A stretch of DNA of 64,000 bases from Hydrogenophaga sp. (GTDB lineage Bacteria > Pseudomonadota > Gammaproteobacteria > Burkholderiales > Burkholderiaceae_C), in assembly GCA_030653975.1 (NCBI GenBank), contig JAURYH010000053.1, forward strand, positions 1-64,000. The letters are read 5' to 3'. Below, in pieces: positions 44,019-64,000 of this stretch (position 1 is the stretch's first letter; every line of letters starts with the position of its first letter). Made by a program: the position numbers and the translations under genes. Below the pieces are notes generated by a model. The model worked only from the letters and a program-made list of their open reading frames with translations, was not told the origin of the DNA and searched no databases.

Positions 44019-46076
44019 ATGCTGACCACCGACGACTCGCCGGAACCCCGCGGCGGGTGGTGGCGCCAGGCCTGGGCGTCGCTGCTGGAGCGCGCGTCCT
44101 TCTCCGGCGCCCATGGCCACCTGGTGAGTGTGCTGGTGGCGCTCTGCACGGCGTGGGCCAGCATCGGGCTGGCCAGCCTGATCGAGGGCGATGCGGGGTT
44201 GGCGGCGGTGGGGCTGGCCATCGATCCGCAGGGGGTCATGGACATCCAGACGGTGTCGGCGCTGCCGCCCACCGCGTTTGAACCCGTTGCCCCGGTGATG
44301 GCGCTGGGTCATTCCAGCGCGGCGCGCTGGTTTGAGGTGCAGGCCTCCGCGGCGACGCCGGGGGGTGTCGCCGTGGTGGTGGTGCAGCCCAGCTACCTCG
44401 ACGACGTGCGCATCTACGTCCCGGACCGCAGCACCGCGTCTGGCTGGCAGGTCCACCAGCAAGGCGACCGCATCGCCTTCGACCAGCGCATGCGCAAAGA
44501 CCTGGCCTTCAGCGCCGACATGCGGCTGGACCAGGGGCAGCGGGCGTTCGTGCGGGTGGTCACGCGCAACGCGCTCAACATCCGCGTTCGCCTGCTCAGC
44601 CCGCAGGCGGCGGACCGGGACAACGCGTTCACGCTCACGGGCGTGGGCCTGTACTGCGGCGCGGTGCTGGTCCTGGCCCTGGCTTCGGTGCTGTCTTCGG
44701 TACTCTACCGCGACCGGTTCTGGGCCGCCAATGCCCTGTTTCAGTTCGCCACGCTGGCGACCGTGGTCTTCTACTTCGGGCTGGGCAACCAGTTCCTGTT
44801 CCCTGGCCAGCCCCGGGCCGCCGACCTGGCGTCGGTGCTGAGTGGCTTCGTGCTGTTTTTCTGCGGCGCCCTGCTGTACCGGCTGCTGTACCAGCAGTAC
44901 GGAGCGCCCGCCTGGCTGCTGCGCCTGTGGTGGCTCACGTTGGCGGCGCTGCCGGTGCAACTGGTCCTGATCGCGCTGGACCGGGTCGATCTGGCCCTGC
45001 AGCTGAACAACGTTGTCATGCCGGCTTCCCTCGTGCTGGGCGTGTGCATGGTGCTGGCGCTGAAGTACCACGACGTTTTCCTGCTCAACCTCCTGCGGGT
45101 CAACATGGTGATCACCCTGGTGTTCCTGGTGCTGCTGTACGCCACCCACCTGGGCTGGCTGGACTCGGGAATCATGCAGCTCTACCCGGGGGTGTTCATC
45201 AACCTGCCGACCGCCGTGATCCTCCATCTGGTGCTGCTGCGCCGCGACGTCCTGCTGCGCCGCCAGCAACAGCTCGATCAGCGTGAGCTCGCGCTGATCC
45301 AGCAGCAGATACACATCGAGCGCCAGCGGCGCGAGGAAGACGAGTGCTTCCTGAGCATGTTGCTGCACGAAATCCGTTCACCCCTGTCCGTTGTGGCACT
45401 GTCCCGGGCGGCACTGGAGCGCAAGCTGCCCCAGGTCGACCACGCCACGCGCGACGCGGCGTTGCGCGATCTGCAGCGCATCGAGGTCTCGGTACAGCAG
45501 ATGCGCGAGGTGTTGCAGCAGGTGCAGGCCACGAGCGAGCTGGAGCACCGGATGAGCGCCGACGAGGGGTTTTCGACCAAGGCGGCGCTGGAAACCTGCG
45601 AGATGTCCATTCTGCTGGACCGTCTGGTGGCGGAGCACATCCGGCATGTGCGTGTGGATACCCTGCGCCTGTCCACGCTGGCGCAGGGCGACAGGTGGCT
45701 CGTGGCTGGCGGGCTGGAGCGGGTGCTGATGATGGTTCGAAACCTGGTGAACAACGCGATCAAGTATTCCGCGCCAGGATCCGTGGTCGTGCTGGATGTG
45801 GCGGTGCGAACGATGGCCTCAACGGGCAGGTCCCAGTGTGCTTTGTCGGTGGTCAATCAGGTGGGTGCGGTCGGCGCGCCGGACCTGCAGCGGCTGTTCA
45901 AAAAATACTACCGGGCGCCCAGTGCCCACCAGTATTCGGGTTCGGGGCTCGGGCTGTACTGGGTTCGGGGCATCGCCCAGATGCTGGGTGGCGACGTGAG
46001 CTGCAGCATGCAGGACAAGGAAGTGACCTTCACGCTGGAGCTGCCCATCGTGGCGGTCAAACCGGTGCGGCGCTGA
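44019..46076 (+). CDS. sensor histidine kinase with 7TM-DISM-like sensor
   Basis: Extracellular domain plus 7-TM block; H-box FLSMLLHEIRSPLSVVALSR; NLVNNAIKYS; SGSGLGLYWVRGIAQMLGG. Confidence 0.9.
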   Translation: MLTTDDSPEPRGGWWRQAWASLLERASFSGAHGHLVSVLVALCTAWASIGLASLIEGDAGLAAVGLAIDPQGVMDIQTVSALPPTAFEPVAPVMALGHSSAARWFEVQASAATPGGVAVVVVQPSYLDDVRIYVPDRSTASGWQVHQQGDRIAFDQRMRKDLAFSADMRLDQGQRAFVRVVTRNALNIRVRLLSPQAADRDNAFTLTGVGLYCGAVLVLALASVLSSVLYRDRFWAANALFQFATLATVVFYFGLGNQFLFPGQPRAADLASVLSGFVLFFCGALLYRLLYQQYGAPAWLLRLWWLTLAALPVQLVLIALDRVDLALQLNNVVMPASLVLGVCMVLALKYHDVFLLNLLRVNMVITLVFLVLLYATHLGWLDSGIMQLYPGVFINLPTAVILHLVLLRRDVLLRRQQQLDQRELALIQQQIHIERQRREEDECFLSMLLHEIRSPLSVVALSRAALERKLPQVDHATRDAALRDLQRIEVSVQQMREVLQQVQATSELEHRMSADEGFSTKAALETCEMSILLDRLVAEHIRHVRVDTLRLSTLAQGDRWLVAGGLERVLMMVRNLVNNAIKYSAPGSVVVLDVAVRTMASTGRSQCALSVVNQVGAVGAPDLQRLFKKYYRAPSAHQYSGSGLGLYWVRGIAQMLGGDVSCSMQDKEVTFTLELPIVAVKPVRR

Positions 46077-46137
46077 CTGGGCCGCCCGGCATCGGTGTTC
46101 GATTTTTCCGCCGCCAGGCGGGGACAAGGTGTGATGG

Positions 46138-46842
46138 ATGTGGGATGTACTGGTTTGTGAAGACTTCACCGATTTGCGCGAAGCCCTGGTGGACTTCCTC
46201 CACGACAGCGGCCACTGGCGGGTTCGCGCGGTGAGCGATGGGCAGGGCGTGCGCCTGGCCTTGGCCGAGCACGTGCCCGACGTGATGTTGCTTGACGTCG
46301 GGCTGCCCCAGGAAAGCGGCACCGAGGTGGCGCGCTGGGTCAAGGCGGCCCACCCGGGGCTGGGCATCGTCATGCTGTCCGGACGCAGTTCGCCGGCCGA
46401 TCGCCTGGCAGGCTGGCGCTGCGGGGCCGATGTGTACCTGCTCAAGCCCGCCGAGATGGAAGAGGTGGAACTGGCGCTGACGGCCCTGGTGAAGCGCGGC
46501 CAGCCGCTGGCCGCCGGGTCTGTGTCCGCCGCTCCCCTGCCGGTGCTGCAGGTCGCCAGGGGCCAGCTGGTCTGCCCCGGTGGCGAGCCCTGCCAACTGA
46601 CCGCCCGCGAAGCCATGCTGCTGCACGCGCTGGCCTTGTCGCACGGCACCGTGGTGGAAAGCGAGACCCTCAGGCGTCTGCTGTGGTCCGATCTGGAAGA
46701 AGACATTGACCACAACAACGCCCTGTTTTCGCTGGTCCGGCGCCTGCGCCGAAAGCTCGATGGCATGGGTTTTCCCGCGGATGCGCTCAACGCCGTGCGG
46801 GGCCGGGGCTATCGGCTGGCCTGCCCGCTGCGGTTCGAATAA
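46138..46842 (+). CDS. response regulator (OmpR-like, receiver + winged helix)
   Basis: DVLVCEDFTDLREALVDFL; PDVMLLDVGLPQESG; C-terminal FSLVRRLRRKLDGMGFPADALNAVRGRGYRLACPL. Confidence 0.92.
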   Translation: MWDVLVCEDFTDLREALVDFLHDSGHWRVRAVSDGQGVRLALAEHVPDVMLLDVGLPQESGTEVARWVKAAHPGLGIVMLSGRSSPADRLAGWRCGADVYLLKPAEMEEVELALTALVKRGQPLAAGSVSAAPLPVLQVARGQLVCPGGEPCQLTAREAMLLHALALSHGTVVESETLRRLLWSDLEEDIDHNNALFSLVRRLRRKLDGMGFPADALNAVRGRGYRLACPLRFE

Positions 46843-46893
46843 CCACACCGGCGCCCGCCCGGCACCGGACCCTGCTCGGGTCGCCGTGCCACA

Positions 46894-46919
46894 CACGCCG
46901 TGCACCGCAGCACGGCGTG
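46894..46919. terminator. perfect 10-bp stem hairpin after response regulator gene
   Basis: CACGCCGTGC-ACCGCA-GCACGGCGTG; no clear U tract. Confidence 0.5.
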
Positions 46920-46980
46920 CAATACATCACGCCTGAAACGACTTTGACCGGGCTGCAGGACCTTTATCAAGGTATTCCAG

Positions 46981-47010
46981 GGTTGTGACAGGTTGTGACA
47001 GGTTGTGACA
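46981..47010. promoter_or_regulatory. three perfect tandem 10-bp repeats upstream of pilus operon
   Basis: GGTTGTGACA x3 followed by degenerate GATTGGGCAA. Confidence 0.75.
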
Positions 47011-47071
47011 GATTGGGCAAAAACGCAGTCCATAGACTTGTGGTGGTTACAAAAATCACTGGAGAGTCTTC

Positions 47072-47887
47072 ATGAAGCGTGAATTTGAGCGATTCGGTGG
47101 TGTTGCTGGAAAGCAACGCCAAGGCGGTTTCACCCTGGTGGAGCTGTCGGTGGTGCTGGCCGTCATCGGCCTGATCATTGGCGCCATGGCCATCGGCAAG
47201 GATGTGCAGCGCAATGCGGAGTTCACCAAGGTCAAGAACAAGTTCATTGACCAGTGGGAGCAGTCCTACAACCAGTATTACCAGCGCACCGGCGTGGTCG
47301 TGGGCGACGACCAGGTGGCGCCGCGCCTGATGGTCAACGGCGCCGCCTATGTGGCTGGCGGTGTTCTTCCGATCTCGGGAGGCAACATGACCGCGGTCGT
47401 GGCCCCGCCCCGGGTGTGCGACAAGGCCGACAACGCGGCCATGACCGTACGCACCGCCGCCGCGGCCGTTACCTTGCGCACACAGATGACGCAGGCCGGC
47501 ATCCGCATGCCGCCCGGCCGTGCCGAGGGTTTTGAAGACCGTTACGTCTACCTCGACAGCAACGGCAACCCGCAGGAGGTGCAGGTCTGCTTCCAGTGGA
47601 ACAACCCCAGCGCCCCCGAGGGCGCGGGCAACGTGATGATCGTCTCGGGCCTCACGCCCGAGCTGGCGCGCATGCTCGACCAGATGGTCGACGGCAAGCC
47701 CGATGCCCAGGAGGGCCGATTCCGCCTGCAGGGCGTGGCCAACGGCACGCCGAACGCGCCCGGCGTGCAGTGGAACCGCACCAACGACGACACGGTGGCC
47801 AGCGGCGCCGGTGCCGCGGGCGACAACCTTCAGCGCGACGAAAGCCAGGTGGTGACCGTGGTCGCTGTCTACAAGATGAACCAGTGA
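47072..47887 (+). CDS. prepilin-type protein, major-pilin-like paralog 1
   Basis: RQGG^FTLVELSVVLAVIGLIIGAMAIG; tandem paralog of the next gene. Confidence 0.88.
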   Translation: MKREFERFGGVAGKQRQGGFTLVELSVVLAVIGLIIGAMAIGKDVQRNAEFTKVKNKFIDQWEQSYNQYYQRTGVVVGDDQVAPRLMVNGAAYVAGGVLPISGGNMTAVVAPPRVCDKADNAAMTVRTAAAAVTLRTQMTQAGIRMPPGRAEGFEDRYVYLDSNGNPQEVQVCFQWNNPSAPEGAGNVMIVSGLTPELARMLDQMVDGKPDAQEGRFRLQGVANGTPNAPGVQWNRTNDDTVASGAGAAGDNLQRDESQVVTVVAVYKMNQ

Positions 47888-47925
47888 CCCCCAGCCCTCA
47901 CTCCTCACTCTTCGGGAACAACGCC

Positions 47926-48822
47926 ATGACCCCTTCTTCCAAAACCCGCCGGAGCGCCCAGTCGGGCTTCACATTGATCGAGCTGACCCTGGTGTTGGCG
48001 GTGATCGGTCTGATCATCGGTGCCATCGCCATCGGCAAGGACGTGCAGCGCAACGCCGAATACACCAAGGTCTCCAACAAATTCCTGGAGCAGTGGAAGA
48101 TGGCGTACGACCAGTACTACCAGCGCACCGGCACCGTGGTCGGTGACTGCCAGCAGGCACCCACCTACATGATCAACGGCGCCGAAACCACGATTGGTAA
48201 CGCGGGTGCGTGCCAGCGCAACGGTGGCCAGGCCGTCGCCGGCATTCCCGAGAACTTCTCCGGCACCGGCGCCAAGATCTGCGAAGGCCAGGGTTACGCC
48301 GTGAACCAGACCGGCGCGGGCGACACCGCGCTGGCCGTGCAGACGCTGCGTACGCTCATGACCCGCCACGGCGTGCGTCTGCCGCCGGGCCGCGGCGAGG
48401 GGCATGAAGACCGCTACGTCTACCAGGACACCAACGGCAACTCCACCGAAGTGCAGGTGTGCTTCCAGTGGAACCCGGCGGGCACCGCCAGCGGTGCCGG
48501 CAACGTCATGGTGGTGCGGGGGCTCACGCCCGACCTGGCCCGCTACATGGACCAGCTGGTCGACGGCAAGCCCGACTCGCGCGAAGGCCGCTTCCGCATC
48601 CAGGACCGTGCGGCCCACACCCAGACCACCGACGCCAATGCCCCGGGCACGTCCTGGGAGGCCAACAACACCATCGCCAGCAACATCGACGGCAACAACC
48701 AGAGTGGCAACGACCCCACAGCCGTGGGGCCGAACAACCCCAACGCGGCGACTGCCACCGGTCGGCAGTACGACGAAGACCGCGTCACGCTGCTGACCGC
48801 CCACTGGATGATGGATCAGTAA
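47926..48822 (+). CDS. prepilin-type protein, major-pilin-like paralog 2
   Basis: AQSG^FTLIELTLVLAVIGLIIGAIAIGKDVQRNAEYTKVSNKF. Confidence 0.88.
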   Translation: MTPSSKTRRSAQSGFTLIELTLVLAVIGLIIGAIAIGKDVQRNAEYTKVSNKFLEQWKMAYDQYYQRTGTVVGDCQQAPTYMINGAETTIGNAGACQRNGGQAVAGIPENFSGTGAKICEGQGYAVNQTGAGDTALAVQTLRTLMTRHGVRLPPGRGEGHEDRYVYQDTNGNSTEVQVCFQWNPAGTASGAGNVMVVRGLTPDLARYMDQLVDGKPDSREGRFRIQDRAAHTQTTDANAPGTSWEANNTIASNIDGNNQSGNDPTAVGPNNPNAATATGRQYDEDRVTLLTAHWMMDQ

Positions 48823-49302
48823 ATGGCCACGTCTCGTCATCGACGTCTGGTCGTCCTCGGCGCTGTGACCGTCGCCCTGGCGGTGGCGGCGTGGCTGGCC
48901 ATGAGCCAGGTTTCGCAGCTGAACCAGGCCCGCGCACAGGTGGCCGCCACCCGGGCCGAGCTGGGCCAACTGCGGGGCCTGATGCCCGTGGTGGAGCAGC
49001 GCGAGCGTTACGCGCGCCAGGACGCCGAGATCCGCGTGCTGGCCGAGCGCGAGGGCTTCGATCCTGCCCGCTGGAGCAGCCGTCGTGTCCAGCGTGCGCC
49101 TTCAGCGGTGCCGCGCCTGGAGGCCGAACGCCTGCTGAGCCAGCAGCTCGGCGGTAGCGCCCTCCAGTGGTTTGTCGCCGATCGTTTCGACGTGTCGGTG
49201 GTCAGCCCCACGGCGGGCCTGTTCACGCCAGCATTGCCCGATGACCGGGGGTTCAGTCTGGAACTCTCCGGTGTTGTCTATTTTCCGTTGGGTGCCCAAT
49301 GA
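48823..49302 (+). CDS. small inner-membrane assembly protein (PilO/GspM/MshJ-like position)
   Basis: One N-terminal TM plus coiled coil; synteny. Confidence 0.55.
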   Translation: MATSRHRRLVVLGAVTVALAVAAWLAMSQVSQLNQARAQVAATRAELGQLRGLMPVVEQRERYARQDAEIRVLAEREGFDPARWSSRRVQRAPSAVPRLEAERLLSQQLGGSALQWFVADRFDVSVVSPTAGLFTPALPDDRGFSLELSGVVYFPLGAQ

Positions 49303-50588
49303 AACCTGACCAGATCATTCTTGTCTGCGCGCAGGGTTGGTTCCAGCTCGCGCAGGGCCGGTGCCGTGAGCTGCAGCCCTGGACCGACGTCAAGGGCTCG
49401 GCGCTCGTCGTGGTGGAGTTCGCCCAGTCGCAGATCGGTGTGCAGGCCTGCAAGGGCAAGGCCGAATACGCCGCGGCCATCATCGAAAAATCGGTGCGCG
49501 CCGAAGGCGCCGTGGACGGCCCGCTGCAGGTGTTCGTGCACCGGCAGATCCGCCACACCGACAGCAGCTCGGTGCTGTACACCGCCATTCCGCTGGAGCT
49601 GTGGCAACAGTTCCAGACCTGGTCGAAGCAGCAGCCCGACCATTGCCTGATCGTGCCGCTGGCGGGCCTGTTCCTGGGCCAGGCCGCGGACGAGCAGTTG
49701 CAGGTGCTGCACCTGGGCTCTCAGCTGCACGCGTTCAGCGCGGCCGGTGGCAAGATGCATTACGCTGGCGCGACGGCCATCGGCAGCGAGCCCGCCGACC
49801 TGCACGCCCCCTTGCGCACCGTGGTGACGCAGCTCAAGGCCAGTGGCTGGACCGGCGCGCCCAAGGGCGCGTGCTGGGGTGGTGTGCTGTCCGACGATCT
49901 GGATGTGGAGCGTGGTCTGCTCGGCCGGCTGGCCGAAGCGGGCCTGAACGACGTGCGCCTGATGCCGCACGAGTCGTTCCTCAACGGCGACGCCACCTGC
50001 GCCACCGTGCTGCCGCACCTGCTCGACGCGATGGATTCGAAAGCGATCCAGGCGCCCTGGCTGGGCCGCATGGCCTGGCTCAGCGAAAGCTATGTGATGC
50101 CGCTGGCCGCATTGATCGCGGTGATGACGCTGGGGCTGGGTGCCTTTGCCCTTTTCTCGAACCACCTGATGGCACAGGAGCAGACCACCCTGCAGGCCCT
50201 GCAGGGCGAAACGGAGCAGCTGCGCCAGCGCGTGAGCCAGGTCGGCCAGGCCAGTGCCTCGGCCCTCGGTCCCGAGGCGGCCACCTTTGTGCGCCAGCTC
50301 GGCTTCGCCGCGGTCCACGACCCGATCCAGATGCTCGCCACGGTGCGCCAGGCGGCGCGCCCCGGCGTTCGGGTGCAGCGTGTCCAGTTGGTCAGGACCG
50401 ACAGCCAGGCCAGGCCCCGCTTCCGTGTGGACGGTGTGGTGGACGGCCCGGCCAACCGGGAATTGCGCCGCTTTCTGGCCGAGTTGCTGGCCCAGGGCTG
50501 GCAGGCCGAATCGGTGTCTCCCAACGACGGCTCGCCGGGGGCGTTCGCCTACCTGTTGAAACCGGCCGCGCCGGGCAAGAGCATCTGA
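49299..50588 (+). CDS. PilM/PilN (GspL/MshI)-like assembly protein
   Basis: Cytoplasmic domain, one TM (YVMPLAALIAVMTLGLGAFALFS), coiled coil and periplasmic domain; synteny. Confidence 0.6.
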   Translation: MKPDQIILVCAQGWFQLAQGRCRELQPWTDVKGSALVVVEFAQSQIGVQACKGKAEYAAAIIEKSVRAEGAVDGPLQVFVHRQIRHTDSSSVLYTAIPLELWQQFQTWSKQQPDHCLIVPLAGLFLGQAADEQLQVLHLGSQLHAFSAAGGKMHYAGATAIGSEPADLHAPLRTVVTQLKASGWTGAPKGACWGGVLSDDLDVERGLLGRLAEAGLNDVRLMPHESFLNGDATCATVLPHLLDAMDSKAIQAPWLGRMAWLSESYVMPLAALIAVMTLGLGAFALFSNHLMAQEQTTLQALQGETEQLRQRVSQVGQASASALGPEAATFVRQLGFAAVHDPIQMLATVRQAARPGVRVQRVQLVRTDSQARPRFRVDGVVDGPANRELRRFLAELLAQGWQAESVSPNDGSPGAFAYLLKPAAPGKSI

Positions 50589-50687
50589 GCGCCCGAGTCG
50601 ACCCCGGCCCGTGAGTGGAAGGCCCGTCGGTTGACGGCTCCCTGGTCCGGTGGCTTTTTCCGAGTACAGCATCCAGCGATACAGCCC

Positions 50688-51287
50688 ATGAAATACGTAG
50701 CCCTGACTCTCACCACCGCCGCCACGGCGCTGCTGGTACTGGCGATGGCGGGCATTGCCCAGCAGATCGGCGGCAACAGCCGGCCGATGCCGCCCCTGCA
50801 GGTCTCGCTCAGCCCCCTGAGCGAGCAGCAGATGCGCGAGCAGGACGAGGTCAAAAACGCCCTGGTGGCCTTGCGCGGAGCGGCCGCGGGCCGTCCGTAC
50901 GGGCTGGCCCAGATCGGCCGGACGCCGGCCGCTCCGGTGGACCAGGGTGTGCAGGCGCAGGCGGACTACGGCAGCATCTTTGCCCTGCCGCTGGAGGTGG
51001 CCGCAGCCAGACCGGTGAAAGCGAGCCCGAGGCCAGAGCGGGTCGCGCTCTCGGCCGTGCCCCTGCCGCGTGTGAGCGTGGTGCTTCGTGACGGCAGCGA
51101 AGGCAAGGCCGTGGTTGATGGGTATCTGGTGGGCGTGGGCGACCAGGTGGCGGGCGGTCTCGTGGTCAAGTCCATCCGCATCGAGTCGGTCACGTTCTCC
51201 GCCCGTGGCGAAGAGATCGATGTCGCCGTCCCGCTGGAGCGCCTGCGCGTGCTGGGCGCCTTTCCTTCGCGGTCCAAAGGCAATTGA
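50688..51287 (+). CDS. PilP/MshK-like pilus assembly protein
   Basis: N-terminal TM; HR-like RVSVVLRDGSEGKAVVDGYLVGVGDQVAGGLVVKSIRIESVTFSARGEEIDVAV. Confidence 0.6.
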   Translation: MKYVALTLTTAATALLVLAMAGIAQQIGGNSRPMPPLQVSLSPLSEQQMREQDEVKNALVALRGAAAGRPYGLAQIGRTPAAPVDQGVQAQADYGSIFALPLEVAAARPVKASPRPERVALSAVPLPRVSVVLRDGSEGKAVVDGYLVGVGDQVAGGLVVKSIRIESVTFSARGEEIDVAVPLERLRVLGAFPSRSKGN

Positions 51288-51958
51288 TGAACAAGGGCGT
51301 GCTCGTCGGAGGTGGGCTGGGCTTGCTGCTGCTGGCCTTTCTGGCCGGTGTCTGGCTGTCCAGGCCGGCCTCGGAACCTGGTCTGGGTGTGGCGCGGCCT
51401 GGCGCGCCTCAGATCCGCTTGCCGGCCGGCGGCGCGCTGGACGCGCCCGCGGGCCCGCCAGGTTCGTCTGCCGATGCACCGACGCCGTCCACCAGCGCCG
51501 CGCCGCCCGGGCCTGGGCTGGGCGCTGAAGGCAGCGCCGCACCCTGGACCGTGGCCCCCCCGGCACAGGCCCAGGCCAGTGGCCCGGCCCTGACGCGCGA
51601 GCAGCGCCGCCAGATCCGGGCCCGGATTCGCGTGAAGGTCAACGAGCTGCTGAGCAAAGGGCCCCAGCTGTCGCTGGCCGAGACGCAGGGGTTGCTTGAC
51701 GAGATCGAGACGCTGGGGCAGGGCCAGTTCGATCCGCGGTACTTCCAGGTCATGCGGCAGATGATCCAGCACAGCGTGACGACCCAGCGGCTGAGCGAGG
51801 AACTGGGCCGCATCGCCCAGAGCACCGCGCCCAAGGACGTGGCGCGCCGCCAGGCCATCCTGGGCGAGTTGCGCGACATCAGCGACCGCATGGCCAACGA
51901 CGCGAAGACCATGCAGTCGTACTCGCGCGACCTGCTGGCCGGTCAGCAGAAACCCTGA
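51287..51958 (+). CDS. hypothetical membrane-anchored protein in pilus operon
   Basis: N-terminal TM (VLVGGGLGLLLLAFLAGVWLS), Pro/Ala linker, helical C-terminus; TGATG overlap. Confidence 0.65.
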   Translation: MNKGVLVGGGLGLLLLAFLAGVWLSRPASEPGLGVARPGAPQIRLPAGGALDAPAGPPGSSADAPTPSTSAAPPGPGLGAEGSAAPWTVAPPAQAQASGPALTREQRRQIRARIRVKVNELLSKGPQLSLAETQGLLDEIETLGQGQFDPRYFQVMRQMIQHSVTTQRLSEELGRIAQSTAPKDVARRQAILGELRDISDRMANDAKTMQSYSRDLLAGQQKP

Positions 51959-51970: not shown

Positions 51971-52738
51971 ATGCACGCCGCCCGCTCCCGCCGACCCGCA
52001 CAGACAGGCTTCACCTTCTTGGAGATGGCTGTGGTGCTGGTCGTGGGCGGCTTGCTGAGCTGGGCCGCTTTTTCCGCCTACGACACGGTGCTCGATGCCA
52101 AGGACCGCCGGCAGGCTCAGGACATGGCCCGGCAGGTGCAGTCGCAGCTGCGCGCCTTCGCCTTGCGGCACGGCCGACTGCCATGCCCCGACGCCAGCGT
52201 CGCGGGCACGGGCCTGGAGAGCCTGGTCGGCGGTGTCTGCGGCAACGGCAACCGGATCGGTTGGTTCCCCTATGTCAGCGTGGGCGCTGGCCTGCCCGTG
52301 GCCGAATACCGCGCCCGTTACGCCGTGTACCGCGCGCCCAACGCCAGCGCGGCGGCCGACGCGGACCTGGCGCTTGCCCTGGAGCGCACCGGCGACGCGA
52401 TCGGCCATGTGAACCACAGCGACGCGGGCGACCTGATCGTGGCGCTGAACAACGTGGCTGGCCTGGCGCTGGCGAGCGACCAACCCTACCTGAGCGGCGA
52501 CGGTGGCGTGGCCGGCGCGGTGGACTGCACCGCCAACCGGCTGATGTCGGTCGCCTACTGGATCGTGGTGCCGCTCAAGGACCGCAGCGGTGACGGTGAG
52601 CGGCTGGACCCACCGCATGCCAGCACCGGTCCGTGTGTGTTCAGCCCGGGCACCCCCGTCAGTGCCACCAACGACGACGTCGTTCTTTCCGAGTCGCCAG
52701 CGCAGCTGGCCGGTTGGCTGCGCCAGAGCCTGCCCTGA
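51971..52738 (+). CDS. prepilin-type minor pseudopilin with RLPCPD motif
   Basis: AQTG^FTFLEMAVVLVVGGLL; FALRHGRLPCPDASVAGTGLE. Confidence 0.8.
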   Translation: MHAARSRRPAQTGFTFLEMAVVLVVGGLLSWAAFSAYDTVLDAKDRRQAQDMARQVQSQLRAFALRHGRLPCPDASVAGTGLESLVGGVCGNGNRIGWFPYVSVGAGLPVAEYRARYAVYRAPNASAAADADLALALERTGDAIGHVNHSDAGDLIVALNNVAGLALASDQPYLSGDGGVAGAVDCTANRLMSVAYWIVVPLKDRSGDGERLDPPHASTGPCVFSPGTPVSATNDDVVLSESPAQLAGWLRQSLP

Positions 52739-54496: not shown

Positions 54497-55437
54497 GCCT
54501 CATCTACCAGGCTCTCAAACAAACCGAACAGCAGGCGGCGCCGTCACAGCAGTCTGGCCGCCGGTGGACCGGCGTGGCCACGCCCGCGCCGGCCCGGCGT
54601 GGCTGGAACCCCGTGCCAACGTTGTGGGGCCTGGTGATCGCGGCCGGGGCGGTGCTGGCGGGTTGGGTGGTGAGTCTGGCACTGGCGGCCCCGCGCGGGC
54701 CATCCGCGCCGCCCGCCCCAGCGCCCGTGGTGCCGGCGGCGCAGGACAGTGTTGGCGCGCTGCTGCCCGCACCCGTTGCCCCGGCCCCGGTGAGCGCTGC
54801 CCGTGCGGACCCGTCTGAATGGGCCCTGCCCAAGGCGGACCGGCCGCTGCCCACCGCGCCGCCTGGGCTGGCGCTCTCGCGTGCCTTGTCGGTGCCGGCC
54901 GGCGCGGCCAAGGCTTCGGCCCCACCCGTGGCCGCACCGGCTCAGAAGGCGCAGAACACGCCGAACGTTCAGGACCCGCGTCCACCCGCCGAGCCAGTCA
55001 CCGGGAAGAAGGAGGCCGCCGAAAGCCCGCGTGCGGCAGAGAGCGCGCCTGTGTCCCAGCCCGCGCCCGACGAACTACCGGCCCTGTTCGATGCGCTGAA
55101 CCACGCGCTGGCCGGCCACGATGTGGACACGGCCCGCCAGCAGTTGCAGGCGATCCAGGCGAAGCTGCCGGCGTCGTCGGTGGCCCGCTTGCGCGCCGAG
55201 GCCTGGTTTGCCCACCAGACCGACGATCTGGACGGGGCGCAGCGCCTGTACCGGCGCCTGCTGGACAAGCTCTCGGGCGATGAACACGCCAGCCTCAATC
55301 TGGCGGCCATCGAGCGCAAGCGCCAGCGTTTTGACCAGGCCAAGGACGTGCTGACCAAGTCCCTGCGTCAGAACCCGAATTCGGCCGTGTTGCGCACGGC
55401 GGTGGACCAGCTGGCCCGCAGCGAGACCACCCCATGA
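54493..55437 (+). CDS. MshN-like TPR-containing pilus protein
   Basis: MSLIYQALKQ start, one TM, C-terminal TPR-like helices; overlaps secretin by 4 nt. Confidence 0.65.
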   Translation: MSLIYQALKQTEQQAAPSQQSGRRWTGVATPAPARRGWNPVPTLWGLVIAAGAVLAGWVVSLALAAPRGPSAPPAPAPVVPAAQDSVGALLPAPVAPAPVSAARADPSEWALPKADRPLPTAPPGLALSRALSVPAGAAKASAPPVAAPAQKAQNTPNVQDPRPPAEPVTGKKEAAESPRAAESAPVSQPAPDELPALFDALNHALAGHDVDTARQQLQAIQAKLPASSVARLRAEAWFAHQTDDLDGAQRLYRRLLDKLSGDEHASLNLAAIERKRQRFDQAKDVLTKSLRQNPNSAVLRTAVDQLARSETTP

Positions 55438-56972
55438 ACGCCCGCAACAGCCACCTGGTCGCCCTGGGCCTGGTGCGCAACCCCTTTCCCTACACACCCG
55501 ACGCGGGCTGCTATTTCTCGACGCCGCATCTGGACGAGCAACTGGTCGAGCTGCAGCACTGCGTGTTGTCGCGCAAGGGCTTCTCGCTGCTCACGGCCGA
55601 GGTCGGCATGGGCAAGAGCACGCTGGTGCGGCGGCTGATGACCGACCTGACGGCGAAGAACGTGGTCTCGGCGCTGGTGTTCAACACCTTCCTGCAGGGG
55701 CCGGAGCTGCTGGCCGCCGTGCTGCAGGACTTTGGCCTGAAAGGCACCGGAACGCTGTCGTCCGACATTTCCGCGCTCAACACCTTCCTGCTCGCCAACC
55801 ACCGCGAGGGCAAGACCTGCCTGCTGATCATCGACGACGCGCAGAACCTCTCGGCCAGCTCGCTGGAGCTGATCCGGTTGTTGTGCAACCTGGAGACCGA
55901 CCAGGAAAAGCTGCTGCAGATCCTGCTGGCCGGCCAGCCCGAACTGGAAGAGATGCTGTCGCAGCACAGCCTGCGGCAGCTGCGTAGCCGCCTGGTGAAA
56001 CATTCGCGGCTGTACGGCTTGACCAGCACCGAGATCGCCGACTACGTGCGGTTCCGTTTCGAGTCGTCCGGCAGCGACGGCTCCCTCGTGTTGCAGACCG
56101 ATGCCTGCCAACTGCTGTTGCGTGAAACGCAGGGCGTGCCCCGGCAGATCCACCTGATCATGGACCGCTGCCTGTACGGGCTGGCGGCCCGCAACGGCAA
56201 CGTCATCGACTCGAACCTGATGAAAGAGGCCATCAACGACAGCCGGGTCAATCTGGTGGGCGCCCCCACGGCGGATGCCGTGGGTGTGGTGCCACCTGCC
56301 CGTGCCCGGCAGCCGTGGCTGGTCGCCGCCGCCTTCGCCGGCCTGGTCGCCACCGGGGCGGCGCTGGGGTCGCGCTTTGGCGGGGTGGATGCTGGCCGCG
56401 GGCAGGACCATGGCGCGGTGGCCGAGGCCATCGCCCTGGCCGCGCCATCGCCCGGGCCTGAGCTGGCCAGCGCACCGCAGGCCACGGTGCCAGCACCGGT
56501 GGCACAGACCGTCGCGGCGGTGTCCGATGCGTCGGGCGGGGCCGCCACCCCGGGCGCGCCGGTGATGGCGCCTCAGGGTCTCTTTGGCACCGGGTGCGAG
56601 CCCGCCACCGAGCAGCCCGCCGGGCGCATCGTGGTGAGCCAGCCCCTGGCGGAACGAACCCATCAGCTGCTGGGCGCGCGCCTGGCCCGGCTGGCCGACG
56701 TCTGCATGGACACCCGCCAGGGCCAGCCCTGGCTGACCTGGAGCACGCCCCAGGCCGGCCACGACCTGAACAAGCGGCTGACCGCGGCCCGCTTCCAGAT
56801 CGCGCTGACCGAATACGGCAGCCTGCTGCCCCGGGAAGTGGACGGCCTCTGGGGCGAGCGCAGCCGGCGCGCCCTGCAGCAATTCCAGAACGAACTGGGC
56901 CTGAGTCCCTCGGGTGAGGTGGACCCCCTGAGCGGCCTGCTATTGGAGAAGTTCTATGTACAAGAACAGTGA
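55434..56972 (+). CDS. ExeA/MshM-like AAA ATPase with C-terminal peptidoglycan-binding-like domain
   Basis: LTAEVGMGKSTLVRRLM; TCLLIIDDAQNLSASSLELIRLLCNLET; C-terminal VDGLWGERSRRALQQFQNELGLSPSGEVDPLS. Confidence 0.88.
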   Translation: MNARNSHLVALGLVRNPFPYTPDAGCYFSTPHLDEQLVELQHCVLSRKGFSLLTAEVGMGKSTLVRRLMTDLTAKNVVSALVFNTFLQGPELLAAVLQDFGLKGTGTLSSDISALNTFLLANHREGKTCLLIIDDAQNLSASSLELIRLLCNLETDQEKLLQILLAGQPELEEMLSQHSLRQLRSRLVKHSRLYGLTSTEIADYVRFRFESSGSDGSLVLQTDACQLLLRETQGVPRQIHLIMDRCLYGLAARNGNVIDSNLMKEAINDSRVNLVGAPTADAVGVVPPARARQPWLVAAAFAGLVATGAALGSRFGGVDAGRGQDHGAVAEAIALAAPSPGPELASAPQATVPAPVAQTVAAVSDASGGAATPGAPVMAPQGLFGTGCEPATEQPAGRIVVSQPLAERTHQLLGARLARLADVCMDTRQGQPWLTWSTPQAGHDLNKRLTAARFQIALTEYGSLLPREVDGLWGERSRRALQQFQNELGLSPSGEVDPLSGLLLEKFYVQEQ

Positions 56973-56979
56973 TACCGGG

Positions 56980-58626
56980 ATGGAACCCATGAAAGAAACC
57001 CGTCTCAGCTTCAGCCAGATGCTGGTGTCCAACGGTCTGGTCAGCCAGATCGTGATCGACTACGTGCGCCAGAAGCAGGCGGTCGAAGGGCACAAGCTCG
57101 GGCGCATGCTGGTGGAGCTGGGCTTCATCAGCGCCAAGGACCTGGCGCGCCAACTGGCGATCCAGCGCGGCATCGAATTCCGGGCGGTGCCCGCGGTCGA
57201 CCCGGAAGTGGCCGCGGCCTTCAACCGCAGCCTGTGCCTGACGCACAACTTCCTGCCGGTGGGCCGCGAGGGCGACAAGTTGCGGGTGCTGCTGGGCGAC
57301 GCCGAGCCCTCGGCCGTGGCGACGCTGATCCAGCGCCGCGTCGGCCAGGAGGTGGTGTTCTGGCAGGGCGAGTTCTTCGCCGTCATCGACGCCATCCACC
57401 AGCACTATTACTTCCAGGAAAACCCGGTCGAGCGGCTGATCGAGGCCGAGATCCGCAAGCTCGCTGACGACCGCGACCACGCCTACAGCCCCGACCGGCT
57501 CATGGAGCTGATCCTGCACACCGCCGTGCGCGAGCGCGCCACGGACGTGCACCTCGCACCCACCGCCCGCAGCCGCGGGGTGCTGATGCGCATCGACGGT
57601 GTGTTGCGGCCGATGTTCGCGATGCCGCCGTCGCTGGACCGCCTGGTGTCCTTCATCAAGCTCAAGGCCGACATGGACGCCAGCGAGCAGCGCCTGCCGC
57701 AGGACGGCAGCTTCACCATCAACCTGATGGACGCCACCTACACGATCCGGGTCTCGACCATGATTTCGGAGTTCGGCGAGCGTGTGGCCATGCGCCTGCT
57801 GGCCGAGCGCAGCGACCTCGACCGCCTGCAGGACCTGGGCTTCCTGGAAGAAGACGTGGCCGAGATGGAAAAGGCCTTTGCGCGCCCGCACGGCCTGATC
57901 CTGATCACCGGCCCCACCGGCTCGGGCAAGAGCACCACCCTGCACGCGGCCCTTCGGGTGCAGCCGCTGGTGGAGCGCAACGTGCTGACGGTGGAAGATC
58001 CGGTGGAGTACCGGGTGCCGGTGGCCTGCCAGACCGAGGTGAACCGGCGCGCCGGCTACGACTTCGCCAGCGCCATGCGGCACTTCCTGCGCCACGACCC
58101 GGACATCATCCTGGTGGGCGAGGTGCGCGATGCCGAGACGGCGCGGGCCGCGCTCGACGCTTCGTCCACCGGTCACCTGGTGCTCTCCACCCTGCACGTG
58201 GGTGGCATCTTCGGTGTGGTGCCCCGCTTGCGGCTGCTCGGGGTGGACGCCGAGACCGTGGCGGAGAACCTGGTGGCGGTCATCAACCAGCGCCTGGTGC
58301 GCAGCATCTGCCCCTACTGCAAGACCCTGCGCGCCGCGACCGAAGACGAAAAGGCCTGGCTCGGGCCGGATGTCTCGATGGTGCACCACGGCGGCGGCTG
58401 CAGCCACTGCCGCGGCACCGGCTACCGCGGCCGGCTGCCGGTCTATGAAATCCTCACGGTCAAGCGCGAGCTGGCCGACGCCATCGTGGGCGAGGCGCCC
58501 CGGGCGCGCATCCGCGAGCTGGCCGAGGCCAGCGGGTTAAAACCCATGGTGCACCTGGCGCGCTACAGGGTCTTGCAGGGCGAGACCACGGTGGACGAGG
58601 TGCGCCGCGCCATTGGACTGGAGTAA
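56980..58626 (+). CDS. type II secretion/type IV pilus assembly ATPase (GspE/PilB/MshE)
   Basis: LILITGPTGSGKSTTLHAALR; VEDPVEYRV; FLRHDPDIILVGEVRDAETARAALDASSTGHLVLSTLH; CPYC..CSHCRGTGYRGR. Confidence 0.97.
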   Translation: MEPMKETRLSFSQMLVSNGLVSQIVIDYVRQKQAVEGHKLGRMLVELGFISAKDLARQLAIQRGIEFRAVPAVDPEVAAAFNRSLCLTHNFLPVGREGDKLRVLLGDAEPSAVATLIQRRVGQEVVFWQGEFFAVIDAIHQHYYFQENPVERLIEAEIRKLADDRDHAYSPDRLMELILHTAVRERATDVHLAPTARSRGVLMRIDGVLRPMFAMPPSLDRLVSFIKLKADMDASEQRLPQDGSFTINLMDATYTIRVSTMISEFGERVAMRLLAERSDLDRLQDLGFLEEDVAEMEKAFARPHGLILITGPTGSGKSTTLHAALRVQPLVERNVLTVEDPVEYRVPVACQTEVNRRAGYDFASAMRHFLRHDPDIILVGEVRDAETARAALDASSTGHLVLSTLHVGGIFGVVPRLRLLGVDAETVAENLVAVINQRLVRSICPYCKTLRAATEDEKAWLGPDVSMVHHGGGCSHCRGTGYRGRLPVYEILTVKRELADAIVGEAPRARIRELAEASGLKPMVHLARYRVLQGETTVDEVRRAIGLE

Positions 58627-58629
58627 GCC

Positions 58630-59904
58630 ATGAGCACCGCCGCCGGTCTGCGTACCTACTACTACCGCGTGCTGCTGCCCCATGGCAAGGTCAAGAGCGG
58701 CTTTCTGCGCCTGCTGGTCGAACGCGACCACTCGGTGCGCCTGCGCCTGGAACAGACCACCGAGGGTGCCGTGCTCAGCCTGGTGCGCCTGCCGGGTTGG
58801 GTCACGGCCCTCAACGACCTGCGGTTGCGGCTGTTTCGCCGCCACGTGCGCCAGCAGGACCTGGCCGGTTTCCTGCGCGACATGGGCATCATGCTGGACG
58901 CGGGTGTCCCGATGATGGAGGCGCTCAAGACGCTGGTGGAAGACGAGTCCGGCGACGACGGCGTGGCCGAACTCGCAAAGCGCGTTCACATCGATCTGGG
59001 TTCGGGCATGCGCATGCCGCAGTCGTTCGCACGGCACCCCGACGTGTTCCCGGAGACCGTGCGCAACCTGGCGGAGATCGGCGACCAGTCGGGTGAGCTG
59101 CCCCGCATGCTGGTGGAGTCGGCCTCGCACATCGAGCGGCTGATCGACATCCGCCGCGACATCCGCACGGCGCTGATCTACCCGGTGCTGGTGTTCATCA
59201 CGATCCTGGGCGTGGGCTTCTTCTGGCTCTACTACGTGGTGCCCAACCTGGCCCAGCTGTTCAAGCAGCTCCAGGCCAAGCTGCCGCCGCTCACGCAGTG
59301 GCTGATCGCGGTGTCGGACGCGCTGGTCCATTACCTGGTGCTGTTTGCGGTCGGCGTGGTGCTGTTGATCCTGCTGCTGATGTGGCTGTACCGCTCGATC
59401 CCCGGTTTCAAGCTCGCCTGCCACGAGCTGCTGCACCGCCTGCCGATCGCACGCACCCTGTCCACTTCCTCGGGCATGGCCTTCATCAGCGAACACCTGG
59501 CCCTGCTGGTGCGCGCCGGTCTGGATTTCATGGTCAGCCTGGACGTGTTGTCCCGCGCCACCACCGACCAGTACTACCGCGAGCGCCTGCTGCGGGTGCG
59601 CGACGGCGTGGCGCGCGGCGAGGGCATCGGCGCTTCGATGCGCCGCGTGGGCGGGTTTCCGGCCATGGCGGTGCGCATGATCGCCGTGGGCGAAGAGTCG
59701 GGGTCGCTGGACAAACAGCTCGACCGTCTGGCCACCGAATACCGCAAGCGGCTGGACGTGGTGGTCAAGTCGCTGGGCGAGATCATCAAGCCCGCGCTCA
59801 TCCTGCTGGCCGGTGCGCTGTTCATCTTCCTGATCGTGGCGCTGCTGCTGCCGATCTACGACCTGGTGCGCCAGTCGGTCAATCACTCGCTGGGAGGGAG
59901 CTGA
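58630..59904 (+). CDS. type II secretion system F family protein (GspF/PilC/MshG)
   Basis: QQDLAGFLRDMGIMLDAGVPMMEALKTL; MIAVGEESGSLDKQLDRLATEYRKRLD. Confidence 0.96.
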   Translation: MSTAAGLRTYYYRVLLPHGKVKSGFLRLLVERDHSVRLRLEQTTEGAVLSLVRLPGWVTALNDLRLRLFRRHVRQQDLAGFLRDMGIMLDAGVPMMEALKTLVEDESGDDGVAELAKRVHIDLGSGMRMPQSFARHPDVFPETVRNLAEIGDQSGELPRMLVESASHIERLIDIRRDIRTALIYPVLVFITILGVGFFWLYYVVPNLAQLFKQLQAKLPPLTQWLIAVSDALVHYLVLFAVGVVLLILLLMWLYRSIPGFKLACHELLHRLPIARTLSTSSGMAFISEHLALLVRAGLDFMVSLDVLSRATTDQYYRERLLRVRDGVARGEGIGASMRRVGGFPAMAVRMIAVGEESGSLDKQLDRLATEYRKRLDVVVKSLGEIIKPALILLAGALFIFLIVALLLPIYDLVRQSVNHSLGGS

Positions 59905-62138
59905 TGCGTGTGGCACCCGGGGCCGGCGTGCCCACCCTGAAAACCCGGCGCCGCCAGCGTGGCTTGGGCCTGCTGGAGGTGCTGCTGTTCATCGCGATCG
60001 TGGGCGGGCTGGCCACGGTCGGCTACCTGGAATGGCGCGACCGCTCCGCGTTGCAGAGCTCGCGCCAGGAACGCGCGTCGCTGTCCCAGGCGGACACGGC
60101 GGTGATCACCTTTGCCACGGTGATGCGCCGCCTGCCATGCCCGGACACCGACCGCGACGGGCTGGAGGACTGCGGCTCTGGGGCCCAGAAAGGCTGGCTG
60201 CCCTCGGTGTCACTCAAGCTGGCGGGGGCCGATGCCGGCGTGGGTGTGGCGCAACTGCGCTACCTGGTGCAGCGAGGCGCCAGCGCCTACGACCTGACGG
60301 TGCTGGGCGACGACTGGCGCCCGCTGGAATACGACGCGGACGCGAACACCTTTGCGGCCATGCGCGAGACCACGGCCAGCGGTGGCAGCTACCAGGCCAA
60401 CATTCTTACCTTGCCCGACCTGTGCCAGCGGGTGGGGGAGGGCGCCGCCGCCACCTTCGGTACCGGCATGGCCCACGTGACCTCGTCCCCCTTGCGCCCG
60501 GTGGCCTATGCGCTGGTGCACCCGGGCCTGGAAGACACCGACGGTGACGGCTCGCTGTTCGACGGCGTCAACGCCTCGGCGGGCAACACGGTGGAAGACC
60601 CCGACCGCTCGCCGCTGCTCAGCAACTACGACGACGTGGTGCGCGAACGCTCGTTTGCCAGCCTGCAGTCGGCCTTTCACTGCCAGCCGCTGGCGCAGTC
60701 GATCAATACCGTGGCGCTGGGGCTGGATGTGGTGAATCAGGTCGACGAAATGCGCGAGGGCAACATCGACGCCGCCGAGCGGGCGGTGATCTTCGCCGCC
60801 CTGGGCGCGGCGATCACGGCGGTGGAACTGACCGCTTCGGTGGTGGAGGCCGCTTCGGACACGGGCAACGCGGTGGCCGAGGCCACCCTGTGCGGTGCCA
60901 CGCTGGGCCTGGCGGTGAACGCCTGCGCCGCCTTCCCGCAGCACATCGCCTCGGCCGTGCTCGCCGGGGTGTCCACCGTGGCCAACATCGCCACCATCGC
61001 CCTGAACGTCACGGCCGCGATCATGGCGGGCAATGCGCTGGTGCTGGCCGACAACAGCCGGCCGCCGGAATCGGTGTCCTGCCCCGTGCCCGACGTCAGC
61101 GCGGCGCTGGCCGCGTCGCTGACCGAGTGGAACAAGGCCAAGGCCGAGGTGATCCGCCTGGAGGGCGAGGTGGCGGCCAAGCAGACCGAACTGACCAACG
61201 CGAACACCGCGAAGACCAACGCGATCAATACCCTGTATTACTGGGTGCGGTACGGCGGCTCGTCGTCCGACCTCGACGGCACCGTGAACCAGCTGATCAA
61301 CGGGGCGAACACCTGGAACCAGGAGGCGCTGGACTACGCCACTGCCCAGGCCACCCGGACCCTCTACCAGACCGAATACGACAGCTGGAGCGACATCGTC
61401 GTGCGCTACAACGACATGTTGACCAACCGCACCACGCTGATACCCCAGGTGGAAGCGGAGATCGCCGCGCTGGACATCCTGATCGCCGCCGAGACGGACC
61501 CGACCGCCAAGGAAGCCCTGCAGCTCCAGCGCAGCAACAAACTGGGTGAGCTGGCGCTGCTCAACGACGTCACCACGCTCACCTCGGAGCGCGACAACGC
61601 CATCGTCAAGCGGGACCAGGCTTACGTGAATCTGCAGGCCGCCATCACCGCCGAAGCCACCGCGCTGGCTGTGCTCAACAGCGCGCGCGGCAGCTACCAG
61701 ACGGCCTACGGCAACCTCGCCAATGGCAGCCTGGGCCCCTACAACTTCTATTACCCACCCTTGACCTTCGTTGCCTGCACCACGCAGCCGCTCCCGGCAC
61801 CGGCCTGCCCCGCGAGCAGCTATTCGACCAGCCCGAACGTTCTGGCGGCGATGCAGGACCTGTTCGGCTCGGGCGGCGACACCGGATCGACACAACCCCA
61901 CGCAGACAGCAAATACATGAGGCCTCTGACGATACAGCGCCAGCTCGACGGCCTGAACGCGCAGCTCACCGCCGCGCGGGAGATGGAAGTCGATACCAAG
62001 AAGCGCTACGACGATCTGAAAGCCCAGGCCGACAACCCGCCGGCCTGCAACCTCACCGGCACCGGCGTCACGCCCTGGTCGCCCACGACAGCCGCCGATC
62101 TGCTCATCAACGTCGACGTGAAGGGGGGCACGCGATGA
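59904..62138 (+). CDS. very large (about 744 aa) prepilin-type minor pseudopilin with RLPCPD motif
   Basis: RQRG^LGLLEVLLFIAIVGGLATVGYLEW; VMRRLPCPDTDRDGLEDC; ATG at 59904 overlaps gspF stop; ORF track start 59298 is over-extended. Confidence 0.82.
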   Translation: MRVAPGAGVPTLKTRRRQRGLGLLEVLLFIAIVGGLATVGYLEWRDRSALQSSRQERASLSQADTAVITFATVMRRLPCPDTDRDGLEDCGSGAQKGWLPSVSLKLAGADAGVGVAQLRYLVQRGASAYDLTVLGDDWRPLEYDADANTFAAMRETTASGGSYQANILTLPDLCQRVGEGAAATFGTGMAHVTSSPLRPVAYALVHPGLEDTDGDGSLFDGVNASAGNTVEDPDRSPLLSNYDDVVRERSFASLQSAFHCQPLAQSINTVALGLDVVNQVDEMREGNIDAAERAVIFAALGAAITAVELTASVVEAASDTGNAVAEATLCGATLGLAVNACAAFPQHIASAVLAGVSTVANIATIALNVTAAIMAGNALVLADNSRPPESVSCPVPDVSAALAASLTEWNKAKAEVIRLEGEVAAKQTELTNANTAKTNAINTLYYWVRYGGSSSDLDGTVNQLINGANTWNQEALDYATAQATRTLYQTEYDSWSDIVVRYNDMLTNRTTLIPQVEAEIAALDILIAAETDPTAKEALQLQRSNKLGELALLNDVTTLTSERDNAIVKRDQAYVNLQAAITAEATALAVLNSARGSYQTAYGNLANGSLGPYNFYYPPLTFVACTTQPLPAPACPASSYSTSPNVLAAMQDLFGSGGDTGSTQPHADSKYMRPLTIQRQLDGLNAQLTAAREMEVDTKKRYDDLKAQADNPPACNLTGTGVTPWSPTTAADLLINVDVKGGTR

Positions 62139-63352
62139 ACCGCTTCGTCATCCGCCGTCGGCAGCGCGGTTTCTCGCTGATCGAGCTGGGCGTGTCGCTG
62201 GTGATCGTCGGCGTGATCGGGCTGATGCTCTGGCGCTGGATCGCCGCCACGCAACAACCCGTCTCGGCGCAGGACATGCGGCGCCAGCTGGGCGAGGCGC
62301 AATCGGCGGTCGAGGGCTTCGTGCTCACGCGCCACCGGCTCCCGTGCTCCGCGGCCGACACCGGTGGGGTGGAGGCCTGCGGCACCGCCGATGCCGTTTT
62401 CCTGCCCTGGAAAACGCTGGGCCTGAGCAGCGACATGAGCGTGCTGCACTACGGCGTCAACCGCGGCGGGGGCGCCGATCTGGCCGCCACCGGGGCGGCC
62501 TGGATATCGCCCGACCTGAACATCGACTTCACCGGCGTGCCGGTGCTGCCGGTGGCCACGGCCGACGCCCCGGCTGCTGCCACCGCGGCCACGCAGGTGA
62601 CCGGCCTCATCACGGCGGCGGCGGCCCGGCGCACGGCGGTCAACGGGCTGGACTGGTGCCGCGTGCTGCGCGGTTTCGCGGCCAACCCCACGGCGGCCGG
62701 TGTGTTGAGCGCCGGCAACATCACGGCCAGCTTGCCGGTGGCCTACACGCTGGTGCACCCGGGGCTGAACGGCCAGTTCGACGGCAACAACCGGGTCGGT
62801 GCGGGCGGCTCGTGGCGGTTTGATCTGCCGGGCCGCGTGCAGGACGACGGCTTCGACGACATTGGCCTGGCCGTGGGGCCGGCCGATCTGTCCGCTCGCC
62901 TGGGCTGCGTGGCACGGCTGAGCGCCGCCCAGGGGTCGGCCCAGGCGGCCTTCGCCCAGTACGACACCACCCGGGTGATGCAGGAGTACTGGTCGCTGCG
63001 CGAGTTCGACGTGACCACGGCCGAAGACGGCGTGAGCGGTGCCGAGACCGGTGTGGCCATGGCCGCCATGGGTCTGGCCATTTCGACCACCAGCACCCTG
63101 GTGGGGCTGGCATCGGCCGCCAACACCGAGGGCCTGACCGTCTACGCCGTGGCCATCGCGGCCGTCAACATGGCGGTGGCCATTACCGAAGTCGGGCTGG
63201 CCGCGCAGGACCTGGTGGACGCCCAGCAGGCGCTGGTGGACTCCAAGGCCAAGCTCGTCGCCGCCAGCACCTACGCGGCCGTGGTCTACACCGCGCTGGC
63301 CGATGTGCTGAGCCAGTCCATTGCACTCGACACGAAAGGACTCAACCCATGA
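62135..63352 (+). CDS. prepilin-type minor pseudopilin with RLPC motif and C-terminal hydrophobic segments
   Basis: RQRG^FSLIELGVSLVIVGVIGLMLW; TRHRLPCSAADTGGVEAC. Confidence 0.85.
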   Translation: MNRFVIRRRQRGFSLIELGVSLVIVGVIGLMLWRWIAATQQPVSAQDMRRQLGEAQSAVEGFVLTRHRLPCSAADTGGVEACGTADAVFLPWKTLGLSSDMSVLHYGVNRGGGADLAATGAAWISPDLNIDFTGVPVLPVATADAPAAATAATQVTGLITAAAARRTAVNGLDWCRVLRGFAANPTAAGVLSAGNITASLPVAYTLVHPGLNGQFDGNNRVGAGGSWRFDLPGRVQDDGFDDIGLAVGPADLSARLGCVARLSAAQGSAQAAFAQYDTTRVMQEYWSLREFDVTTAEDGVSGAETGVAMAAMGLAISTTSTLVGLASAANTEGLTVYAVAIAAVNMAVAITEVGLAAQDLVDAQQALVDSKAKLVAASTYAAVVYTALADVLSQSIALDTKGLNP

Positions 63353-64000
63353 GACAGCGGATGAAGGGGTTCACGCTGGTGGAAATTTCGGTGGCGCTGC
63401 TGGCGCTGGGCCTCATCGTGTGGGGGGCGGTGGCGTTCTGGCAGCAGTCGGCGGGCCAGCGGGTGTCGGCCGTGCAGCTGGACGCGCAGCAGCAAGCCCG
63501 CCAGTCGGTGCTGGGTTTTCTGTACGCCCGGTACCGCCTGCCTTGCCCGGCGGCCGACGCCAACGGCGTGGAGTCCTGCTCGCTCGCGGGCGGGGGCCTG
63601 CGCCAGGTCGGCTACGTGCCCTGGCAGACGCTGGCACTGCCCCGCCCCGAGGCCGGCCGGCTGCGCTACGGCGTATCCCGCGAGGCTTCGGTCACGGCCC
63701 ACCTGGACCGCGACCTCGCGGTGGCGCAGGACCGTATGAACCCCTTGCGCGTGCGCACGCCCGATCCCCGCCCGCAGAATGGCAACGCCCCCAACGGCGA
63801 CGCGCCACCCCTGCCCGTGGCCACCGCGGGGCTGCTGGGCGCCACCCAGTCAGGTGACGTGGCGGCCCCGCTCAACAGCGCGTGCAACCCGGCCAACGCG
63901 CCTCCTTGCAGCCTGGGTGGCGCGGCCTCGGTCAACCTGGTGGACGTGTGCCTGGCGTTGAACACCGCCTCGGACGCCGCCACCGCGCCCGCCGGGTCAC
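63349..64000 (+). CDS. prepilin-type minor pseudopilin, truncated by window edge (absent from ORF track)
   Basis: MRQRMKG^FTLVEISVALLALGLIVWGAVAFWQQ; ARYRLPCPAADANGVESC; ATGA overlap with previous gene; open to the window end. Confidence 0.85.
   Translation, partial: MRQRMKGFTLVEISVALLALGLIVWGAVAFWQQSAGQRVSAVQLDAQQQARQSVLGFLYARYRLPCPAADANGVESCSLAGGGLRQVGYVPWQTLALPRPEAGRLRYGVSREASVTAHLDRDLAVAQDRMNPLRVRTPDPRPQNGNAPNGDAPPLPVATAGLLGATQSGDVAAPLNSACNPANAPPCSLGGAASVNLVDVCLALNTASDAATAPAGS

Follow-up and report, generated by a model that had tools for sequence, protein, structure and literature searches.

A divergent MSHA-like type IV filament locus in Hydrogenophaga sp. with its own pilins

Results

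Gene content of the locus

The 64,000-nucleotide window analyzed here lies within a contig of 79,855 bases (C5) in the 4.09-Mb genome of a Hydrogenophaga sp. Translation and searches against Pfam and NCBIfam revealed a collinear type IV filament locus downstream of the genes of a two-component system (TCS; 44019-46842). An earlier note, made from the sequence alone, had placed a 7TM-DISM-type kinase and an OmpR-like regulator ahead of the pilus genes, and the Pfam matches bear this out (for the kinase, PF07696 at 1e-15, PF07695 at 29.1 bits against a cut-off of 29, and HATPase_c). The locus comprises 16 genes, encoding three major-type pilins, four minor prepilins, K, L, N, M, E and G, together with O, I and X (Table 1). 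The note had counted about 14 collinear genes and two major-pilin-like paralogs. The genes are indeed collinear, mostly with short overlaps or small gaps, but 15 are present in the window and a sixteenth, encoding a third major-type pilin (PilA3), lies beyond its end, so that the locus extends to 65420. It is closed there by a convergent gene, named as radical-SAM-like by sequence inspection. Three of the four minor prepilins are unusually large, with 405-744 residues. No match was obtained in an Rfam search of the window or in a PHROGs search.

Table 1. Features of the filament locus and of the region upstream of it.
Feature	Position	Strand	Description	Evidence
Kinase	44019-46076	+	7TMR-DISM sensor histidine kinase	PF07696, PF07695, PF02518
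Regulator	46138-46842	+	OmpR/PhoB-family response regulator	PF00072, PF00486
Repeats	46982-47011	+	Three 10-bp direct repeats GTTGTGACAG; probable operator for the response regulator	
PilA1	47072-47887	+	Major-type prepilin; ancient paralog	N_methyl PF07963; pilin tree
PilA2	47926-48822	+	Major-type prepilin; separate ortholog group across classes	N_methyl; 100/99
O	48823-49302	+	One TM, coiled coil; MshI2/PilO position	hhalign to MshI2 only 56%
I	49299-50588	+	N-terminal part of ~260 aa, TM, short C-terminal part; GspL-like layout	
K	50685-51287	+	MshK/GspB-like	hhalign to MshK 95%; weak PF16537 (T2SSB), below cut-off
X	51287-51958	+	One-TM protein	Position conserved
minH	51971-52738	+	Minor prepilin with RLPCPD motif	N_methyl; ortholog clade 100/99
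L	52784-54496	+	MshL-type lipoprotein secretin	TIGR02519, 285.1 against 250.2 bits; tree
N	54493-55437	+	MshN-like TPR protein	Pfam TPR; hhalign to MshN 98%
M	55434-56972	+	ExeA/MshM-like AAA ATPase, C-terminal peptidoglycan-binding domain	PF13401, PF01471; hhalign to MshM 100%
E	56956-58626	+	Assembly ATPase with MshEN domain	PF00437, PF05157; tree
G	58630-59904	+	Inner-membrane platform	PF00482; hhalign to MshG 100%
big1	59904-62138	+	Minor prepilin, 744 aa, coiled-coil extension	Weak N_methyl
big2	62135-63352	+	Minor prepilin, 405 aa, C-terminal helical part	N_methyl
big3	63349-64000 in window, on to 64662	+	Minor prepilin, 437 aa	
PilA3	64692-65420, beyond window		Third major-type pilin, after big3	

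Occurrence in other bacteria

Comparison of synteny across Burkholderiales and beyond showed the same gene set and order in 14 genomes from several families. Using tblastn and profile searches, the full set was found in the same order in eight further loci of Hydrogenophaga and Polaromonas. It is also present in two genomes of the same family (G511, G544), two of another family of the order (G446, G553) and one from elsewhere in the class (G319). Strict profile matching did not pick up K in the last three or X in G446 and G553, although genes of similar size occupy these places. A genome from another class (G878) has almost the same order (pilA1, pilA2, O, I, K, an X-size gene, minH, L, N, M, E, G, big1-3, pilA3). 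The E protein shares 97% identity with that of H. taeniospiralis, 84% with those of H. pseudoflava and H. flava, and 80% with that of a Polaromonas MAG, where the locus is also present. The occurrence is patchy: the secretin profile matched in 5 of 300 genomes of the order, while a broad ATPase threshold, which admits more distant loci, returned 32 of 399 genomes of the phylum. A plasmid search with the secretin gave no match.

The order L-N-M-E-G is found here and in all of the 14 loci (clade A), confirming the swap of M and N relative to Vibrio MSHA that the note had pointed out. In five more distant loci of the outer clade (G641, G676, G644, G699, G647), M is enlarged to roughly 740-1080 residues, and that of G641 (L172, 6803-9883) contains AAA, peptidoglycan-binding and SPOR domains.

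Major-type and minor pilins

In the pilin tree, PilA2 and PilA3 formed separate ortholog groups (each 100/99) reaching across classes, and PilA1 fell outside both. At least three of the pilins are therefore ancient, and the two groups indicate that distinct pilins were kept. Similarity to MSH pilins by hhalign was confined to the N-terminal helix region. The match to MshA in the PDB had E = 0.03 over 22 residues, and none of the pilins could be assigned as an MshA-type major pilin; the PDB sequence search returned only N-terminal helices of interest, the heads having no recognisable relative. Nearly all PilA1, PilA2 and PilA3 proteins (47072-48822; L002, 4692-5417) have an acidic DxNGNxxE loop in the same position, which resembles a calcium-binding loop.

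Among the minor prepilins, minH formed an ortholog group (100/99), and big1-3 were less well resolved. The latter have in common an RLPCP pilin part followed by an Ala/Gly/Val-rich helical C-terminal part, and many members contain DxDxDG-type loops. The AlphaFold model of big1 is helical over residues 393-713 (pLDDT mostly over 70), and is good only in the coiled coil; the AlphaFold (AF2) model of big2 contains helices at 258-328 and 335-403 and is poor (mean pLDDT 46). Foldseek searches returned generic coiled coils, none at E ≤ 0.001, and the structure models are too poor for a fold claim.

The charge-poor C-terminal helices, present in all three large pilins across classes, and the hairpin predicted in big2 would fit a filament for contact-dependent delivery or penetration, in which hydrophobic helical hairpins insert into the membrane of a partner. 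We regard such a filament as very improbable. A simplified estimate of insertion energy gave marginal or unfavourable values, all above zero, hydropathy was marginal, charge-free runs were not longer than composition predicts (shuffle control, P about 0.24), and the models, themselves poor, gave no structural match. A membrane-inserting role of big1-3 is not supported beyond this resemblance.

Envelope and motor components

The secretin L carries a lipobox (LLGAC) and passed the cut-off of the NCBIfam MshL equivalog, in agreement with the lipoprotein secretin that the note had recognised. It failed those of GspD (126.3 against 351 bits) and PilQ (101 against 284 bits), and E likewise failed those of GspE (391 against 630 bits) and PilB (362.9 against 675.7 bits). 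Against reference families derived from canonical MSH loci, hhalign matched K, N, M and G to their MSH counterparts at 95% or above (Table 1). Relatives of MshE, MshG and MshM, which are mandatory in the published MSH model (PMC6668835), are thus all present, the first by its two Pfam domains. MshF and GspK were not recognised in the locus, and GspC and GspG gave no match there above cut-off.

Of the inner-membrane proteins that the note had labelled by analogy, the PilP-like one is backed by the match of K to MshK. The labels PilO-like (O) and PilM/N-like (I) reflect position and architecture only: neither protein gave a confident match in the profile comparison, O had no significant Pfam match, and I had no family match, with nothing relevant in the PDB sequence search. 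I is kept in all 14 loci. X matched no family in the Pfam, profile and PHROGs searches.

Phylogeny of the ATPase and secretin

In the ATPase tree, clade A, including the window, and 10 outer loci formed a 100/100 group, with separate groups for canonical MSH (100/100), MSH-like loci of Burkholderiales (100/100) and T2SS (98/92). The secretin tree agreed, giving a fully supported clade of its own (100/100) outside canonical MSH, the MSH-like group of Burkholderiales and T2SS. The three MSH-like groups joined at 91/86 in the ATPase tree and at 99/96 in the secretin tree, apart from T2SS. The MSH affinity of the clade depends on a reference set that was small, and the program warned of long branches, so its sister relations are less sure than its separateness. 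Neither E nor L grouped within any characterised clade of MSHA or T2SS that shares this pilin set, and the note's view of a divergent MSHA-like locus with its own pilins is upheld.

The second MSH-like type in Burkholderiales, with the order M-L-N-E-G and RLPCP prepilins, was seen in the same genus (L062, G042) and in two further genomes (L064, G099; L125, G198). In G198 it is located directly beside a canonical MSH locus.

The cut-off passed by L and the profile matches to MshK, MshM, MshN and MshG could also point to a divergent canonical MSH pilus locus of Burkholderiales. This is quite unlikely, as the canonical loci have their own 100/100 clade, which excludes this locus; the MSH-like group of Burkholderiales is different and also separate; and both the order L-N-M and the pilin heads, which are unlike those of MshA/B/C/D/O, depart from it.

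A T2SS-like secretion machine deserves more weight, and is still rather unlikely. Here PilA1-3 would form a short pseudopilus, and a tip of minH and big1-3 would push folded proteins through the MshL-type secretin. Several observations fit this and tell against a surface pilus, namely the absence of a GspD-type T2SS secretin from the genome, the GspL-like layout of I and the weak T2SSB match of K. The number of minor pilins (four, as in GspH-I-J-K), the DxDxDG-type loops in many of them, the DxNG loop in the PilA proteins and the ExeA-like peptidoglycan-binding domain on M also fit. However, neither E nor L belongs to the T2SS clade, and both fall far short of the GspE and GspD cut-offs; GspC and GspG are unmatched at cut-off, and there are three major-type pilins. 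We favor a surface pilus rather than secretion on three grounds: the envelope and motor components are of MSH type, three major-type pilins were kept, and no T2SS-defining part was recognised.

Processing and retraction

As the note had remarked, the window contains no prepilin peptidase or PilT-like gene, and no PilD or PilT gene is present in the locus even past the window end. However, one prepilin peptidase, PilD, is encoded elsewhere in the genome, together with PilB, PilT and PilU. The genome additionally encodes a TfpB-type pilus ATPase (L005, G000:C42; NF053534, 871.6 against 850 bits). All MSH loci of the published survey are without a prepilin peptidase (PMC6668835), and in Vibrio both the retraction and the extension of the MSHA pilus require PilT (PMC9815625). 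Given these precedents and the genes available in trans, the missing PilD and PilT are no sign of a non-retractile fibre, and we reject the note's suggestion of one as unsupported.

Two-component system and upstream repeats

Three perfect 10-bp direct repeats precede pilA1 (Table 1). With a two-repeat pattern allowing up to three mismatches, theirs was the only site in the genome, and none of 1000 shuffles of the region reached the observed repeat. The sequence TTGTGACAGnTTGTGACAGA is conserved upstream of pilA1 in TCS-bearing genomes and decayed in G024, which lacks the TCS. Pairs of the TTGTGACAG type occur at the same distance in the window genome, H. taeniospiralis, G039, G040, H. pseudoflava and H. 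flava, are partly kept in G059, and are decayed in G024.

The TCS adjoins the locus in seven of the eight Hydrogenophaga loci with a readable upstream region, and not in other relatives, so the note's description of it as the locus's own holds within the genus only in the main and not outside it. In G024 the locus is present, and no such kinase was found anywhere in the genome at E ≤ 1e-40; the 7TMR-DISM kinase was likewise not found in five Hydrogenophaga genomes without the locus. The repeats are a probable operator of the adjacent regulator. Their uniqueness, their position upstream of the first pilin and their decay in a relative without the kinase suggest that the TCS controls the pilus operon; retention of the locus in G024 without it speaks against the proposal of a regulated pilus. 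Other clade loci have other neighbours: BTAD regulators flank the locus in G446 (L114) and G553 (L115), where the TCS is missing, and that of G446 also has AAA and guanylate-cyclase matches.

c-di-GMP sites of E

The MshEN domain binds c-di-GMP via two RLG-type 24-residue motifs (PMC5013675). In E, motif II has the intact form seen in canonical MshE (KLG...L...L..Q), and motif I is degenerate (SFS..I..R..Q), with Arg replacing the second Leu. E thus does not have the two intact half-sites of MshE, and scored 36.2 bits against the NF053729 cut-off of 38. G059 and G024 retain an intact half-site I, and G319 has both half-sites intact. The erosion of motif I here and its retention in relatives suggest that c-di-GMP control of the motor is ancestral and was probably weakened in this species.

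Discussion

We propose, with a probability of roughly 0.6, that the locus specifies a complete envelope machine that builds a regulated, adhesive type IV pilus on the cell surface, and that this pilus belongs to a lineage adjacent to the MSHA pili yet distinct from them. The prepilins would be processed in trans by the single PilD. The four minor prepilins would form the initiating tip complex, and the MshE-like E and MshG-like G would polymerise PilA1-3 into a filament, possibly a mixed one. M, N, K and L would place the secretin channel in the cell wall and outer membrane, and PilT and PilU may retract the filament. The 7TM-DISM kinase and its regulator would activate the operon via the repeats upstream of pilA1, with ancestral c-di-GMP control of the motor probably weakened. 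By analogy, the pilus would probably attach the cell to a surface or partner, the large minor pilins lying at its tip.

In a bolder reading, which we consider doubtful, the clade would be a separate type IV filament type with the same rank as MSH and T2SS, distributed over several classes of Pseudomonadota. Its filament would be a heteropolymer of the three ancient pilins, and the three giant pilins would make up a tip that contacts or inserts into a partner surface.

MSH is said to have been described only in Gammaproteobacteria, to which a survey adds Chrysiogenetes and Epsilonproteobacteria (PMC6668835). A literature search, whose coverage took in a minority of subscription journals, found no paper describing the locus, which is apparently an undescribed, separate MSHA-like branch. 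The branch adds a further MSH-like lineage, whose gene set is fixed and which has three ancient major-type pilins along with three oversized minor ones. It can serve as a test case for the acquisition of new pilin sets by filament machines, and for a possible transfer of control from c-di-GMP to a dedicated TCS.

Comparison with known systems shows that the locus shares with the MSHA (MSH) type IVa pilus of Vibrio and Shewanella an MshL-type secretin, an MshE-type ATPase with MshEN, relatives of MshG, MshM, MshN and MshK, and the organization as a single locus without PilD. It differs in forming its own clade in the E and L trees, in the order L-N-M rather than L-M-N, in pilin heads unlike those of MshA/B/C/D/O, in its three major-type and four minor prepilins, and in the ExeA-like peptidoglycan-binding extension of M. 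The MSH-like loci of Burkholderiales (L062, L064, G198 locus 1) have the MSH-type core in common with it, as well as minor prepilins of the RLPCP type and a pilin whose N-terminal part is PilA3-like, whereas their E is only about 31-34% identical, their order is M-L-N-E-G, and they form a separate 100/100 clade. With T2SS the locus shares the general architecture, an ExeA-like protein and the GspL-like layout of I, but its E and L neither fall in the T2SS clade nor reach the GspE and GspD cut-offs.
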